DNA from: Chitinophaga arvensicola
GTDB lineage: Bacteria > Bacteroidota > Bacteroidia > Chitinophagales > Chitinophagaceae
Direction of reading: 5' to 3'
Length of the DNA: 64,000 nt
Assembly (NCBI RefSeq): GCF_900110835.1
Contig: NZ_FOJG01000002.1
Location: 3,006,556-3,070,555, forward strand
Position 1 is the stretch's first letter; each line of letters opens with the position of its first letter. The position numbers were made by a program, and so were the translations under genes. Shown here piece by piece: positions 2,818 through 32,500 of this stretch. Below the pieces are notes generated by a model. It ran no database searches and had not been told where the DNA came from. It saw only the letters and a list, made by a program, of their open reading frames with translations.

Positions 2818-3939
2818 ATGCTTTTTACAGATTATACACTTGGCGGACTGACCCTGAAAAACAGGATAGTGATGCCGCCGATGACAAGGTCCAGAGCGGC
2901 CAGCGGAGAAGCGGCCACATCCCTCATGGCGGAGTATTACCGTCAGCGTGCGGGAGCAGGTCTTATTATATCAGAAGGAACACAGATCAGCCGCCAGGGC
3001 CAGGGGTATGCCTGGACACCGGGCATTTATACTGCTGCACAGATAGCGGGCTGGAAACAGGTAACCAAAGCCGTGCATGAGGCAGGTGGTCTTATCTTTG
3101 CACAGCTCTGGCATGTGGGACGTGTATCGCATACTTCCCTCCAGGAAAATGGCGCTGCCCCGGTAGCACCTTCCGCTATCCTGGCAACAGGCGTAAAAGT
3201 ATTTGCCGATCCCGAAGGCAAAGGAGCCGAAAATGGCGCCGGAGAAATGATCCAGCACTCTATGCCCCGGGAACTGACAAAGCCCGAAATAAAGGCGATT
3301 ATCAACGATTATGCACAGGCTGCCCGTAATGCTATAGCCGCCGGTTTCGACGGTGTGGAATTACATGGCGCCAATGGCTACCTGATAGAACAGTTTATCG
3401 ACTCACAAACCAATCACCGTACCGATGAATACGGCGGGTCCCTGGAAAACCGGTTGCGCTTTCTGAAAGAAGTAGTGACCGCCGTGGCTGATGCCATCGG
3501 AAAGGAACGTGTAGGCGTACGCCAGGCGCCACTCACCACCCTGATGGGCGCTATGGATGATCATCCGGAAGAAACCTACATTGCCGCCGCAAAAGTGCTG
3601 AACGAAATTGGTATTGCTTATATACACATTGCGGAAGCCGACTGGGACAATGCACCTGTAATGCCCATCCCCTTCAAGGAGGCCTATAGAAAAGCATTCT
3701 CCGGCACCCTGATCTATGCCGGTAAATACACCCTGGACCGCGCAGAAGAAGCTCTCCGGAAAGGCTGGGCCGATCTGATCGCCTTCGGACGGCCGTTTAT
3801 CGCCAATCCGGATCTGCCTTACCGTTTGCAGCACGGATTACCTTTAAATGAACCCGATCGCAGCAAATTCTTTGGTGGCAGCGTAGCCGGTTACACCGAT
3901 TATCCATCGATTAAAAAAACAGCAGATGCTATTATTTGA
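2818..3939 (+). CDS. Old Yellow Enzyme family NAD(P)H:flavin oxidoreductase (alkene reductase)
   Basis: A 373-residue FMN-dependent TIM-barrel ene-reductase of the OYE/NemA type, expected to reduce activated C=C bonds of enones, nitro compounds or similar electrophiles in the cytosol. Visible family features: LKNRIVMPPMTRSRA near the N-terminus, AQLWHVGR, the HGANGYLIEQF substrate-binding His/Asn pair with the following Tyr, NHRTDEYGGSLENR, and GRPFIANPDL near the C-terminus, which carries the FMN-phosphate arginine. The usual R-L-S-P strand reads VRQAP here; the arginine is kept. The end overlaps the next gene by 14 bp, so the two are probably translationally coupled. The divergent LysR regulator is the likely controller. 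Confidence 0.93.
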   Translation: MLFTDYTLGGLTLKNRIVMPPMTRSRAASGEAATSLMAEYYRQRAGAGLIISEGTQISRQGQGYAWTPGIYTAAQIAGWKQVTKAVHEAGGLIFAQLWHVGRVSHTSLQENGAAPVAPSAILATGVKVFADPEGKGAENGAGEMIQHSMPRELTKPEIKAIINDYAQAARNAIAAGFDGVELHGANGYLIEQFIDSQTNHRTDEYGGSLENRLRFLKEVVTAVADAIGKERVGVRQAPLTTLMGAMDDHPEETYIAAAKVLNEIGIAYIHIAEADWDNAPVMPIPFKEAYRKAFSGTLIYAGKYTLDRAEEALRKGWADLIAFGRPFIANPDLPYRLQHGLPLNEPDRSKFFGGSVAGYTDYPSIKKTADAII

Positions 3940-5023
3940 AAAATATAACGATAAAGGCCTGGACTTAAAGAACAGGATCGTGATGGCGCCCATGACACGC
4001 GCCCGGAATCCCAATGGTATTCCGAATGAGATGAACGCATTGTACTATCAGCAACGTACCAACGCAGGACTGATCATTACCGAAGGTACTGCCATCTCTC
4101 CTACCGCTACGGGCGTATTGCATATTCCCGGGCTGTATACCGATGAACAGGTGGAAGGCTGGAAAATAGTGACCAGCGCCGTACACGCTACAGGTACCAA
4201 AATATTCACACAGCTGTGGCATGTTGGCCGCGTATCACATACCAGCAATCAGCCGGGTGGCATCGCCCCCGTGAGCGCATCCAATATTCCTGCCGCCAGT
4301 TCCCACGCATGGGGATACGACGAAAACGGCCAGGAAAGCTTCGTTACCTGCTCCACACCCGTAGCACTGACTACCGATGGCGTGAAAGCAGTAGTACAGG
4401 ATTTCGCGAACGCAGCAACCAACGCCGTAAAAGCAGGTTTCGACGGCGTAGAACTACATGGCGCCAACGGCTACCTGATAGAACAGTTCCTGAATCCGTT
4501 CGTAAACAACCGCACCGATGAATATGGTGGCAGCATCGAAAACCGCAGCCGCTTCCTGCTGGAGGCAATAGACGCCAGTATTGCCAACATCGGCGCCGAT
4601 AAAGTGGCCATCCGCTTAACACCTTATGGCGGTCTGCATGAGATGCCACATTACGACGAAATAGAAGCTACTTACAGTTACCTGGCAGCGGAATTGGGTA
4701 AACGGCAAATCGCTTACATCCACCTGATGGATCAGCAATCCAGAGGCAGCTACGCATTACCGGAAGGATTTCTGGAAAAATTCAGACAACAGTATCGCGG
4801 CGTACTGATACTGGCAGGCGGCATGACCCGCGATAAAGCTACACAACTGATCAATAAAGGGATAATAGATCTGGCAGCATGGGGAGAACCTTTTATTGCC
4901 AACCCGGATCTTACTGAACGACTGAAAAACGACTGGCCATTAAATACACCCGACAGGCAATTACACTATGGAGGGGCTACACATGGGTATACAGATTACC
5001 CGGTGTATGAAGCAACCAGGTAA
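3926..5023 (+). CDS. Second Old Yellow Enzyme family oxidoreductase
   Basis: A 365-residue OYE-family protein encoded directly after, and overlapping, the first. It shares LKNRIVMAPMTRAR, TQLWHVGRVSH, HGANGYLIEQF (catalytic His/Asn), NNRTDEYGGSIENRSRF and IRLTPYGG. The normally conserved GRPFIANPDL is GEPFIANPDL here (GGA GAA CCT in the DNA): the arginine that contacts the FMN phosphate in OYE-type enzymes is replaced by glutamate. FMN affinity or orientation might therefore differ; this is inference from the family. Apart from the shared motifs the two copies have drifted well apart, so this is not a fresh duplication. A strong hairpin terminator follows. Confidence 0.92.
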   Translation: MLLFEKYNDKGLDLKNRIVMAPMTRARNPNGIPNEMNALYYQQRTNAGLIITEGTAISPTATGVLHIPGLYTDEQVEGWKIVTSAVHATGTKIFTQLWHVGRVSHTSNQPGGIAPVSASNIPAASSHAWGYDENGQESFVTCSTPVALTTDGVKAVVQDFANAATNAVKAGFDGVELHGANGYLIEQFLNPFVNNRTDEYGGSIENRSRFLLEAIDASIANIGADKVAIRLTPYGGLHEMPHYDEIEATYSYLAAELGKRQIAYIHLMDQQSRGSYALPEGFLEKFRQQYRGVLILAGGMTRDKATQLINKGIIDLAAWGEPFIANPDLTERLKNDWPLNTPDRQLHYGGATHGYTDYPVYEATR

Positions 5024-5028
5024 AAAAG

Positions 5029-5062
5029 AAGCATTACGGGGAAAGACGTAATGCTTTTTTAT
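5029..5062 (+). terminator. Rho-independent terminator after the OYE pair (bidirectional)
   Basis: AAGCATTACG (5029-5038) pairs perfectly with CGTAATGCTT (5047-5056) across an 8-nt loop and is followed by a T-rich run (TTTTTTATTTT). The minus strand also ends in CTTTTTT, so it can stop transcription arriving from the right. Confidence 0.88.
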
Positions 5063-5081
5063 TTTCCCCGCAGCAAAATCA

Positions 5082-5105
5082 GAACCCGCCTGTGACAGCG
5101 GGTTC
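5082..5105 (-). terminator. Stem-loop downstream of the lanthipeptide-like gene
   Basis: GAACCCGC (5082-5089) and GCGGGTTC (5098-5105) form a perfect 8-bp stem with an 8-nt loop. On the minus strand it is followed by TGATTTTG, only a weak U-tract. It lies 42 bp beyond the stop of the 5147-5290 peptide gene and would end the leftward operon, backed up by the bidirectional terminator at 5029-5062. Confidence 0.6.
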
Positions 5106-5146
5106 CATCAACTAAAACAAACGTTAGCCATTGGGCAAACCGGCTA

Positions 5147-5290
5147 TCAGCACACCCAAAAAGTTTCTCCGCAGGAAATGAACTGCGTCGTCGGCAGTGA
5201 ACGTTCCTTGTTTTTTTCGGTGGATATTTTGCTCAGACTTGCTACAGTAATTTTTGTGAGCTTCAACCTGGAAGTGATTTTCTTTTTCAT
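5147..5290 (-). CDS. Lanthipeptide-like precursor peptide (47 aa), class I type
   Basis: A short leftward frame, ATG at 5290 to TGA at 5147-5149. The leader starts MKKKI and contains LKLTKITVASLS (residues 9-20), close to the L-x-L-x-K-x-T-[IV]-x-x-L pattern of class I lanthipeptide precursors common in Bacteroidota. A charged linker follows (about 25-30). The last 16 residues are rich in Thr/Ser/Cys: TTQFISCGETFWVC, with Cys40 and Cys47 as possible thioether donors to dehydrated Thr34, Thr35, Ser39 or Thr43. It lies 74 bp downstream of the beta-helix gene on the same strand and is followed by a stem-loop, so it may be the last cistron of that operon. No dehydratase, cyclase or dedicated exporter is present in the window. 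Processing and activity are inference. Confidence 0.72.
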   Translation of the reverse strand: MKKKITSRLKLTKITVASLSKISTEKNKERSLPTTQFISCGETFWVC

Positions 5291-5364
5291 ATTGCTACAG
5301 ATTTAGGTTACCCTGAATCTACGACAAGAAAGCCTTTTTCGATATCACGTAAAAAGGGGATTTA

Positions 5365-6900
5365 TTACTGTTGCGCTCCTTTGCTGATCTGGTTATTCAC
5401 GATACGCGGCTTACCATCTATATCCAGCGTCCCATTTACCGCTTCTGAAATTACCACACCGCTGTTACGCGCAGGCGAGCCGGGAGCGATATGCAGATCA
5501 GGCACCGTAGTACTGATCAATAATGGATCCACCCCATATACTGATGCCGCATCCATACCTGACGCCGTTTTCCAGGCATTAAAATCCATATTGACATTAC
5601 CGTTAGTGCTACCCCAAATCCATTGCGGCATACCCGTAGTATAGTAAAGATTATTGTCAATCACATTCCCCGACCCCGTGTTCGTATACTTATGCACAAA
5701 AATATCTACCGGTCTCGCATAAACGATATTATTGCGGATCACGTTATCAAAGCATTGTTCGGTTAGACGGATCTCCCCCTCTATTTCACCAAAAGCACCC
5801 GGCTCCCGGTTATTAAACAGCAGTGTATTATTCACCACATAACAGTTACGCGTACCGCCGGAAGTATAACCAAGATAACCTCCCAGGTAAATACCCGTAC
5901 GCCAGCAGTTAGATACAAAATTATTCCTGACAATACAGCTGCTCGTGGGATATGCATCATTCTCACTCACGATGCCGATACCACGGTCTGCTTCGTGTAT
6001 GCGGTTACGTTCTACTATGATATTGCGGGCGCCGTCTACATAAATAGCAATAGCGCCATGACCATGCGTGCCCCCAACCGGTCCGTGTGTCATATCAATA
6101 TTGTATAATTCATTATCACTGATCACACCATTGCGTGCGTAGTTAAACGCAGGATTACTGTTAGCCGCATAGCCACCAGCCGCATCAATGCCAATGTTCT
6201 CGGTATTGTAAATCGTGTTTCCCCGGATCGTAAATCCATCTACATAACCATTGATGGTAAGGTTTTCGCTGTACCCGGTTTTTGTATCGTGGATCACATT
6301 ATTTTCTACCAGGATATTCTTCATCACATCCGCAGTGTTGCCGATAATTTCGATACCGTGTCCGCTGCGGCCCTGTGAAGGATCCACATTGTGTTCTATG
6401 TTATAGATCTTGTTTTTCCGGATGATGATATTCCCGGACCCGGCATCCGCTGTAATCCCATTCACATTGGCACCAGCCGCCGTGCTTTTCAGGTTGCAGA
6501 TATCAAATCCCTCCAGCACCACATAACTGGCATTACTGATAGTCACCAATGCCTCCCTGCCGGTAACGGTCATGCCGGTGCCATCTATCACGGCCTTTTC
6601 GCCGGGATATGCTTTCAGCGTGATCAGTTTTTCCAGCCGGCCGGAACGTGGAAACACCACCTTTTCTCCGTAGGTGCCTGCCCGTACCATAACGGTATCG
6701 CCGGGATTAGCTTTCCCCAGCGCGGTATTGATACTGGCCAGCGGATGATTGCTGCTGCCGTCTGCGGTATTGCTACCATTGGGCGCTACATAATACGTGT
6801 GGGTCTGCGCCACCTTTTCTGCGTTAATGGCAGTAGTGCCTTTACTACAGGCGCCTGCCACCAGGGCGAATAAAAAGAAATACATATTCCTGTTTAACAT
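5365..6900 (-). CDS. Secreted right-handed parallel beta-helix lipoprotein, possible polysaccharide lyase
   Basis: A 511-residue lipoprotein: signal peptide with lipobox VAGAC (Cys18). After it comes TYYVAPNGSNTADGSSNHPL and MVRAGTYGEKVVF, the opening typical of DUF1565/PL9-like beta-helix proteins. Repeated coils such as NIIIRKNKIYNI, NILVENNVIHDT, GFTIRGNTIYNT and NIIVERNRIHEA mark the rungs of the helix (about 130-430). Such proteins are often lyases of uronic-acid polysaccharides, but no catalytic residues can be assigned safely. It is the only possible degradative enzyme of this SusC/SusD operon, which points to a pectin- or uronate-like glycan (inference). It could instead be a non-catalytic binding protein. 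Confidence 0.85.
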   Translation of the reverse strand: MLNRNMYFFLFALVAGACSKGTTAINAEKVAQTHTYYVAPNGSNTADGSSNHPLASINTALGKANPGDTVMVRAGTYGEKVVFPRSGRLEKLITLKAYPGEKAVIDGTGMTVTGREALVTISNASYVVLEGFDICNLKSTAAGANVNGITADAGSGNIIIRKNKIYNIEHNVDPSQGRSGHGIEIIGNTADVMKNILVENNVIHDTKTGYSENLTINGYVDGFTIRGNTIYNTENIGIDAAGGYAANSNPAFNYARNGVISDNELYNIDMTHGPVGGTHGHGAIAIYVDGARNIIVERNRIHEADRGIGIVSENDAYPTSSCIVRNNFVSNCWRTGIYLGGYLGYTSGGTRNCYVVNNTLLFNNREPGAFGEIEGEIRLTEQCFDNVIRNNIVYARPVDIFVHKYTNTGSGNVIDNNLYYTTGMPQWIWGSTNGNVNMDFNAWKTASGMDAASVYGVDPLLISTTVPDLHIAPGSPARNSGVVISEAVNGTLDIDGKPRIVNNQISKGAQQ

Positions 6901-29522: not shown

Positions 29523-32500
29523 TCAGAGTGTGATGTTGATGCCTATCGTATAACTTTTTAAGATGGGATAGTTATTACCATTCCCGGAACTGTTGGTATC
29601 GGTGACGGTATCGGAGCGACGGATACTTTCCACATCGAGGTCGCGGGTAATTTTATACAGGGGCGACCACGACCAGAGGTTTTCCGCAGAGAGATAAACC
29701 CGCGCGGAAGACATCTTCGCTCTGGATACCAGCGAATGCGGCAGGTTATAGCCTACCTGTAAATTTTTCAGACGGATATACGCCACATTCTGCAGGTATT
29801 TCGACTGCGCGCTGGCCAGCTCACCTGCACCGTTCTGGGCTACGTAACCACGGTAACGCGGGAAATAAGCATCCGGATTATCCTCTGACCATATTTTTCC
29901 TTCCTGCGATTTAGGCATAAAGTTGTAGGGACGGTTATATTGTCCCCAGAACACATCTGATTCAGATCCCGGCCACCAGTTCTGTTGCAATACACCCTGG
30001 AAGAAAGCGCCTACGAAGAAATTATTCCAGTCGGCGTTCAGGGAAATACCATAAGTATAGCGTGGCAGTGTATCACCGATAATGGCAAGATCGCCATGCT
30101 GACTGAGGGTATTGGCGCCGTTGTTAATTACCCCGTCTCCATTCAGATCTTTGAATTTAATATCACCGGGCAGCCATTGTCCGCTGTTGGAAGCTTTGAA
30201 GAGCGCCTGTGTTTTAGCTGCCTGCGCCACGTTATCTTTATTCCAGTAGCCATCATTTACATATCCCCATATCTCTCCGTATTTCTGGCCTACATAATAA
30301 TCAGTGAGTTTATTATTGGTATTGTTATATTTGGTAATAGTGGCTTTGTAATCGGCCATGGATACACTCACCGCATAGTGTAACGGTTTGCTGGCTACAT
30401 TAAACTGGTCTTTCCAGCCAACCGATATTTCCCAGCCCACCGTTTTCAGGTCGGCATAGTTTCCTTTGGGTACATCCGTACCAAAAACGGCTGGCAGGGT
30501 TTGGCCTACAGTAAACATATTCTTGGTGATTCTCGTATAAGCGTCTCCGTTAATAGTGAGGTGATCATTGAGTGCAGTCAGGTCCAGTCCGAGATCACGC
30601 GTGGTAGATGTTTCCCAGGTAAGACCATCCGGCAATACCGCAGGCTGTGTGGTTTGCTGTTGCTTGCCACCATTGATCACCCGGCCGGATTGGGTAATGG
30701 CCATCTTTTCCTGGAAGGCATAAGAAGCAACGTTACCATTTCCCAGGGAACCGTAAGAACCTCTCACTTTCAGGTCAGAGATAATTTTAGGAGATACTTT
30801 CCAGAAAGGTTCCTGTGCTACTCTCCAGCCTGCGGATACAGACGGGAAGAATGCATAACGCTGGTTGGAAGGGAATTTGGAAGACCCGTCGTAGCGACCA
30901 TTTACTTCTACCAGGTAGCGATCCTTATAGGAATAGTTCAACCGGAAAAATTCCCCCATGATGGCCCAGCGGTCGTAGCCACCGGCGGTATTGATATTGG
31001 TGCCCAGTGCAAGATTCAGGTCTTTTGCATCGCTGTACACCAGCCCGTTGCGGGTGGTAGCAAAACCTTTATAGGTAGATTGTTCATAGTTGAACCCTAC
31101 CAATGCTTTGAAATAATGCGTATTGCCGCCGAAATGGTTTTCATACTCTCCGTAAATGTTGGAGGCCATATACAGCGTGTTATAGTTGCTCATCATCAGA
31201 TCGTTGTAGTTGGAGCCTACATAGGCGATCACACCAGGAGCATTGCTGTAAGGAACGGGGACGCGTATACGTTTTTGATTATCTGCGGTATTCTGGAAAG
31301 TAAAATCTCCCTTTAACCTGAATTTGTCCTTATAAATATTGGCCACAAAACCGGTGGTATTACGGAAAAGTTGTTTGTTCCAGTCCAGTCCGTTTTTACC
31401 ATAGTACAGATCCCCCACGGTGTAGGCGGCGGAAGCAGTAAGTGTACCATCCGGGTTGAGCAACATGGAAGAGGGATGCGCCTCATCGGCCATGTTGCGC
31501 CAGATACCGCCACCTTCGCCTACGTTCACGGGGTTATGATAGTCACGGTTCGAGAATTCGGTATTATTATATACCTGCAGGAAAGGGAAGAGCTGGATAT
31601 TTCCTTTGGCGCGCAGGTTATACATTTTATAATCATCTGAGTTAAAGCGGAACAAACCATCCTGACCATAATATCTGCCGGTAATATAGTAGCTGGCTTT
31701 TCCGCTGCTGCCGGAAACGGTGAGGTTCTGATCGGTAGCGGTGGTATGGTCTTTATAAAGCAGTCCGTACCAATCGGTGTTACCGTAATACTCATAGGCG
31801 CCGGCAGCATTTACAATGGTCTTTGGCAAAGAAGGATCATCGTTATGCGCTTTGAGTGCGGCCAGGTAGGCCGGGGAAAAAGGCTGCGTTTTATTGATAT
31901 TCTGGGGCGTCTGGGAGTAATCGTTCCAGGCAGTCCAGGCTTCGTTGAAGTTTTTAGCGTATTCGTAGCCGTTAGTTACCATATCAGGAACGGTGGTCGG
32001 CTTCTTCAAGGAATAATTGGAAGAATAGCTCACACTCAACCTGTCTTTCACCGGCACCTTGGTGGTAATCAGCACCACGCCAAAAGCTGCCCTTGCGCCA
32101 TAGATAGCCGCAGAAGAAGCGTCTTTCAGTACGGTCACACTACCCACATCGGCGGGATTGATCATACTGGGATCACCCTCTACCCCATCGATGAGGATGA
32201 GCGCACTTCCGCCCTGCCCGATGGATGTTGTACCACGGATATTATATGCAGGAGATTGAATGGGCTTACCGTCACCGGGAATCAGGTTGAGGTTGGGAAT
32301 CACCCCTTGCAGGCCCTGGCTGAGATTGGGCAGCGGGCGATTTTCCAGTACCTGCCCGGTCACCTGTGCTACCGCACCGGTGAGATTGGCCTTTTTCTGG
32401 GTACCATAACCTACCACTACCACATCATTAAGCGTGGAAACATTGTCTTTCAATACCACCTGGAAGGTAGTTTTGTTTCCAACGGAAATAGTATCCGGCT

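Follow-up and report, generated by a model that had tools for sequence, protein, structure and literature searches.

The window, a 64,000-nucleotide (64-kb) stretch of the Chitinophaga arvensicola genome, has a gap of 341 bp with an old-yellow-enzyme-type gene on one side and a DUF1565 gene on the other, and within this gap lies a short gene on the minus strand, which we refer to as the orphan precursor gene. A sequence-only reading of the same DNA had placed a 47-codon gene with its own downstream stem-loop, strand unspecified, in a gap of about 340 bp and had described a Ser-, Thr- and Cys-rich tail ending in Cys. The ORF at 5147-5290, a stem-loop at 5080-5107 and the 47-aa product, MKKKITSRLKLTKITVASLSKISTEKNKERSLPTTQFISCGETFWVC, bear this description out. 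The features of the locus are as follows.

3926-5023, plus strand: old-yellow-enzyme-type gene, convergent with the orphan (Pfam).
5080-5107, minus strand: terminator-like stem-loop downstream of the orphan (folding, terminator scan).
5147-5290, minus strand: orphan precursor gene, 47 codons plus a TGA stop (ORF list, homologues, pN/pS).
5150-5200, minus strand: putative core, residues 31-47, SLPTTQFISCGETFWVC (alignment of 22 sequences).
5201-5290, minus strand: leader, residues 1-30 (alignment, leader model), with the leader/core boundary inferred from conservation.
5234-5266, minus strand: LxLxKx5L leader motif, residues 9-19 (LKLTKITVASL), read from the translation.
5315-5321, minus strand: TAGATTC, a promoter -7-like element just downstream of the palindrome, in a column that is TAnATT-like in 22 loci.
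5344-5361, unstranded: palindromic control site, ATCACGTAAAAAGGGGAT on the plus strand, beginning 3 bp beyond the upstream gene's stop codon and centred 63 bp before the ATG.
5365-6900, minus strand: DUF1565 gene, the last of a SusC-SusD-NHL/TIG-DUF1565 operon (Pfam); context, outside the proposed system.

Positions 2818-5023 carry two old-yellow-enzyme-like genes side by side, the second assigned by Pfam and the first grouped by BLAST. The 61-nt stretch with the stem-loop folded with a z-score of -2.81 (2 of 200 shuffles were equally good), and a longer 97-nt stretch around it reached a z-score of only -0.92. The consensus for the -7 element in Bacteroidetes is TAnnTTTG, and a scan of positions 4900-5500 for sigma-70-type promoters returned no promoter.

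A Pfam search with the 47-aa peptide matched no family. Protein-level conservation, on which the sequence-only reading had staked its proposal, was found: full-length homologues occur in 21 of 98 relatives (own genome apart), at 43-87% identity and E <= 1.7e-6, and all 21 of these relatives belong to the genus Chitinophaga. Weaker matches, with E values from 0.03 to 1, mostly covered the leader only. Because full-length homologues recur in this many relatives, the ORF is more than a chance reading frame. Uncorrected pN/pS was 0.17 among the five genomes that share the gene context of the window, 0.32 in the TTQ subfamily (12 sequences) and 0.20 in the HKTCP subfamily (seven sequences). The ORF codes for protein, and in the lineage of the window purifying selection acts on it.

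Residues 9-19 of the product carry the LxLxKx5L motif, which excerpts of Walker et al. 2020 (PMC7268733) report for the leaders of Bacteroidetes class I LanAs. The leader, which lacks a GG, had been likened to class I lanthipeptide precursors, and this holds for the motif. It does not extend to the leader model NCBIfam NF038153 (class I lanthipeptide leader L1a), against which the orphan scored 13.3 bits (E 0.07) with a curated cut-off of 22 bits. The best matches to this model in the same genome, 19.2 and 15.3 bits, also fall under 22 bits and lie in the remote cluster described below; within the orphan family, 10 of 17 members matched at E <= 1, the best at 0.002. Across the 22 aligned sequences, M1-K4, L9, L32, T35, C40, T43, W45, V46 and C47 are invariant, so that the conserved core has Ser/Thr ahead of Cys, and residues 31 and 39 are exclusively Ser or Thr. 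Judged from the alignment, this restricted variation is what the substrate of a dehydratase would be expected to allow.

The window had been described as devoid of LanB, LanC or an exporter, and none of the LanB, LanC and C39 matches of the genome lies within its 64 kb. Modifying enzymes are encoded elsewhere, one of two options in the sequence-only reading (the other, a different role for the leader, retains some probability): the genome has two LanB matches (C2:1426503 and C3:2116373) and two LanC matches. The first LanB belongs to a cluster on the same contig as the orphan (G000:C2, about 1,423,750-1,429,660), approximately 1.6 Mb away, which we term the type A cluster. Its LanB is full length, with both Lant_dehydr domains (PF04738 and PF14028), a LanC is encoded alongside, and its regulator combines Response_reg and GerE domains, as in NarL/LuxR-type response regulators. 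Three precursors were found in this cluster, two of them divergent from lanB and one following it, MKKKNEKKMKLGAVKVTRLNAVPVAADKHITIPTTTVHRTFDCL, a paralogue of the orphan with a like leader. Related copies of the leader, another expectation of the sequence-only reading, are thus present in the type A cluster.

Type A clusters recur across the genus. In a LanB tree of 96 distinct LanB-locus rows, built by a quick method and containing some very long branches, type A LanBs form a supported clade of 40, divided into an A2 subclade of 21 (SH-aLRT 97) and 19 A1 members; one row (L274) probably represents a different protein, and weaker and ~850-aa LanBs were left out. The DNA-binding helix of the regulator differs between the A1 and A2 clades. 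All 38 type A loci examined combine lanB, lanC and the regulator; no other gene family is constant across them (the next commonest is found in 16 of 38), and no exporter or protease is conserved in these 38 loci. Two strong C39 transporters lie ~65-105 kb from the type A cluster of the own genome, and export of the orphan by a GG/C39 route was set aside as unlikely, given the distance of these transporters and the lack of a GG in the leader. When a profile of the orphan leaders was used to rank hand-picked precursors, nine of the 10 from type A clusters outranked all 10 from other clusters, the tenth taking place 12.

A palindrome of ~20 bp precedes all 22 orphan genes, centred 61-73 bp from the ATG, and it is retained in nine gene contexts although the flanking DNA differs. 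It reads AAATCCCCTTTTTACGTGATA on the minus strand of the window and is degenerate in G024 and G047 (AAACCCCCTTTTAACAGGATT). Related palindromes, often two, are found in the divergent region between lanB and precursor genes of type A clusters (two in most, as judged by eye). Scored with a weight matrix built from the orphan sites, for which the lan clusters are an independent target although they come from the same genomes, the best site upstream of lanB had a median score of 13.1 in A2 (21 loci), 8.9 in A1 (19 loci) and 1.4 in other LanB loci (55 loci). Upstream scores of at least 10 were obtained for 18 of 40 type A loci vs 2 of 55 others, and the top-scoring site of an entire locus lay near lanB in 14 of 21 A2, 8 of 19 A1 and 2 of 55 other LanB loci. 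A weight-matrix match at window position 31304 was dismissed, being inside a 1067-aa ORF.

Whole-genome searches were done by pattern matching, the weight matrix being applied to loci. In the own genome, ATCMCSNWWWWNSGKGAT with up to one mismatch gave 34 sites and the reversed pattern, used as control, 11. Thirty-two of the 34 lie inside stop-to-stop frames of 138-1006 codons, and the remaining two are those of the orphan and of the type A cluster; the orphan's site lies in the gap, where a 147-codon stop-to-stop frame without an assigned gene spans the same stretch. There are two perfect matches, the orphan's and one inside a 602-codon frame. The other own-genome sites that were strong by weight matrix or free of mismatches (L206, L212) were dismissed because they fall inside reading frames. 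Across 79 genus genomes, a strict 20-bp pattern gave 56 strand-rows vs 4 for its reverse, corresponding to 47 distinct sites, of which 38 are lanthipeptide-linked. Seventeen of the 47 precede members of the orphan family, two precede decayed copies, seven precede other scattered precursors and 12 lie in lan divergent regions, with nine elsewhere, seven of these inside reading frames. The first 60 genomes contain 22 orphan sites, and the strict pattern recovers 16 of these.

The presence of the orphan also follows the LanB subclades. Among 60 genus genomes, it was present in 19 of 21 with an A2 LanB, in 2 of 19 with an A1 LanB and in 1 of 20 in which no type A LanB was found, this last assignment being taken from placed tree rows and scores for G043, G055 and G058. 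The association with A2 LanB has a Fisher p of 1.4e-10 among the 60 genomes with kinship ignored, and the orphan occurs in none of the 16 genus genomes without any LanB. The exceptions are G055, which has the orphan and its site and no type A LanB found, and G001 and G027, where an A2 LanB is present and the orphan is missing.

The sequence data establish directly that the gene exists and is conserved, that LanB and LanC are encoded remotely, that the leader type and the rare site are shared, and that the orphan co-occurs with one LanB subclade. On these grounds we favour the reading, with a probability of roughly 0.7, that the orphan encodes a satellite class I lanthipeptide precursor of the remote type A cluster, the two being switched on jointly through the shared site. 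Because the same rare control site stands at both, the orphan is probably co-switched with the remote enzymes. The gene would supply an unmodified precursor from its stand-alone position, and the palindrome before it would most likely be the operator for the type A response regulator, which would activate the scattered precursors along with the core enzymes. The LxLxKx5L-type leader would then recruit LanB, which is predicted to dehydrate the Ser/Thr residues at 31, 35, 39 and 43 or a subset of them, and ring closure onto Cys40 and Cys47 of the 17-residue core would fall to LanC. The wider proposition, a dispersed class I regulon in Chitinophaga in which a LuxR-type regulator and one palindrome bring several precursor families and one enzyme pair under one signal, we hold to be probable, if a little less so. 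With similar confidence, we consider that the operator, rather than gene proximity, defines the biosynthetic pathway.

Several observations count against the satellite reading: the genomes G055, G106, G001 and G027, the NF038153 score below cut-off, the lack of an exporter or protease linked to the system, the six orphan sites missed by the strict pattern, the position of the best locus site near lanB in no more than 14 of 21 A2 and 8 of 19 A1 loci, the four unrelated sites among 12 in out-of-sample genomes, a co-occurrence computed with kinship ignored, and the failure of operators to match within genomes. With regard to the last, orphan sites fit the cluster of their own genome no better than those of other genomes; in G024 and G047, the match to the own cluster was 16 of 21 vs means of 13.7-13.9, with up to 17 elsewhere. 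Nor could single regulator residues be paired with single operator bases when the A1 and A2 helices were compared. G106 (L326) has lanC, the regulator, a precursor and two sites, with only a short remnant of lanB; its site is counted among the 12 in lan divergent regions. The orphan profile also matches this genome at least 13 times, and several of these matches are scattered.

The alternative that survives best, although we judge it unlikely, is that the orphan is a lanthipeptide precursor served by another LanB, such as the second full LanB of the own genome (C3:2116373), or by several LanBs. It would account for G055, where orphan and site are kept alongside other LanBs only, and for G054: at 20 of the 21 orphan loci neither LanB nor LanC occurs within about 8 kb, the exception being G054, which has a GG-leader LanB/LanC/C39 cluster with the orphan ~4.6 kb downstream of it. 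However, the site marks type A clusters, as the upstream scores of 18 of 40 vs 2 of 55 loci indicate, and the precursors of the other clusters mostly carry GG leaders, which the orphan does not. Among these other clusters, L135, L138, L150, L186 and similar ones have five to eight or more GG-leader precursors consecutively, and L186 has a C39 transporter too.

Slightly less likely again is that the regulon includes a conserved small peptide of a different kind (signalling, metal-binding, regulatory or a LanB decoy) that never becomes a lanthipeptide. Such a peptide would be in keeping with the NF038153 score and with a short core that has only two Cys, and lanthipeptide modification is itself a prediction from sequence. 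Against it, the exchange of Ser and Thr at two positions amid invariant Thr and Cys fits dehydration and ring closure, and the paralogue with a like leader stands right after lanB in the same genome.

The sequence-only reading had further suggested that the location downstream of a glycan-uptake operon ties the peptide to feeding, and a feeding-coupled peptide within the SusCD operon programme is the corresponding alternative. The orphan does directly follow the SusCD-NHL-DUF1565 operon in five genomes, and in several of the other contexts SusC-like genes are found no more than 8 kb away. The 21 orphan loci, however, fall into nine gene neighbourhoods (up to 8 kb read per side, 1.5 kb only for G044), the SusCD context being common to just 5 of the 21 and the remainder divided among eight others. 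With 149 SusD matches over its 8.3 Mb, the own genome has one roughly every 56 kb, so that such a neighbour is often to be expected, and wherever the orphan occurs it comes with a control site and a terminator of its own, along with a promoter-like element. We therefore rejected the link to SusCD feeding on the nine contexts and the SusD density, and regard it as improbable. The SusCD neighbourhood is incidental, since the orphan stands alone in nine different contexts. The proposal of an orphan class I lanthipeptide-like precursor accordingly stands on the remote LanB and LanC and on conservation, having lost the tie to feeding and fallen short of the model cut-off. That the gene is a chance ORF or a dead remnant, an idea to which decayed copies in G018 (L225) and G019 (L233) might lend some colour, is refuted by the homologues and pN/pS of an intact window copy under purifying selection and retains a negligible probability. 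These decayed copies, which keep the site and a terminator-like sequence and have lost the product frame, come after a DUF1565-type gene that, by eye, appears to correspond to the one in the window, and in both genomes the intact orphan gene sits elsewhere.

The comparisons that follow draw on excerpts of the cited papers. The satellite arrangement resembles that of the class II prochlorosins and synechococsins (ProcM/SyncM), in which many short precursors are encoded one by one across the genome, at a distance from a single promiscuous enzyme; some of their clusters have LuxR- or receiver-type regulators (PMC10783134), and mining limited by distance overlooks prochlorosin precursors that are encoded far from LanM (Walker et al. 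2020, PMC7268733). On our best reading, the layout of the orphan is prochlorosin-like, in that scatter is observed and a remote enzyme would serve the scattered precursors. Unlike the prochlorosins, which use LanM and Nif11-type leaders, the system described here has class I LanB and LanC with LxLxKx5L leaders, and no shared operator for prochlorosins is described in the excerpts of PMC10783134.

The orphan shares its leader motif, phylum and LanB/LanC class with the Bacteroidetes lanthipeptides of Walker et al. 2020 (PMC7268733; NF038153). Unlike that set, which in these excerpts was found near LanC genes, it is encoded ~1.6 Mb away and does not reach the NF038153 cut-off. Pinensins, from Chitinophaga pinensis, are class I and close at genus level; in LanB architecture, the feature compared, pinensin has a split LanB (PMC7268733) and the type A system a full-length one. 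Heterocycloanthracins, distally encoded TOMM precursors, likewise have a precursor gene away from the enzymes and differ in their chemistry, and the excerpts of PMC4603692 state no operator link for them. As with the DeepRiPP lanthipeptides deepflavo and deepginsen, the precursor was found independently of context (PMC8358304, PMC7369419). That work included Chitinophaga strains (PMC8358304), and its lanthipeptides, known here from the descriptions in reviews only, may overlap the orphan family. In the literature searched, with most subscription journals outside its scope, there was no report of an operator-linked dispersed class I lanthipeptide regulon, a negative result that gives weak support for novelty.

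Mining in the vicinity of enzymes misses lone precursors, and here such precursor genes are connected with remote enzymes by a control site. If the regulon is borne out, it would allow a regulator to be mapped, testably, to all of its products, add a class I counterpart of the prochlorosins among Gram-negative bacteria and offer a way towards the signal that calls for the peptides, and the operator could be used to locate missing pathway members in unread genomes.

The site also predicted further members in genomes outside its definition. In 19 genomes that had not contributed to the motif, 8 of 12 sites were lan-linked, two of them in lan clusters, and the four others (in G100, G104, G105 and G110) were unrelated. 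At the out-of-sample precursor sites, the ATG lies 68-76 bp from the centre in five cases and 93 bp in one. A second lone precursor family (MKKK..LPKLSLNKK...SDPLTENPCDP...C) has the same site in L271 (G055), L334 (G102) and L273 (G039): in G055 and G102 it is centred 76 bp upstream of the ATG, and in G039 it lies beside a divergent pair.
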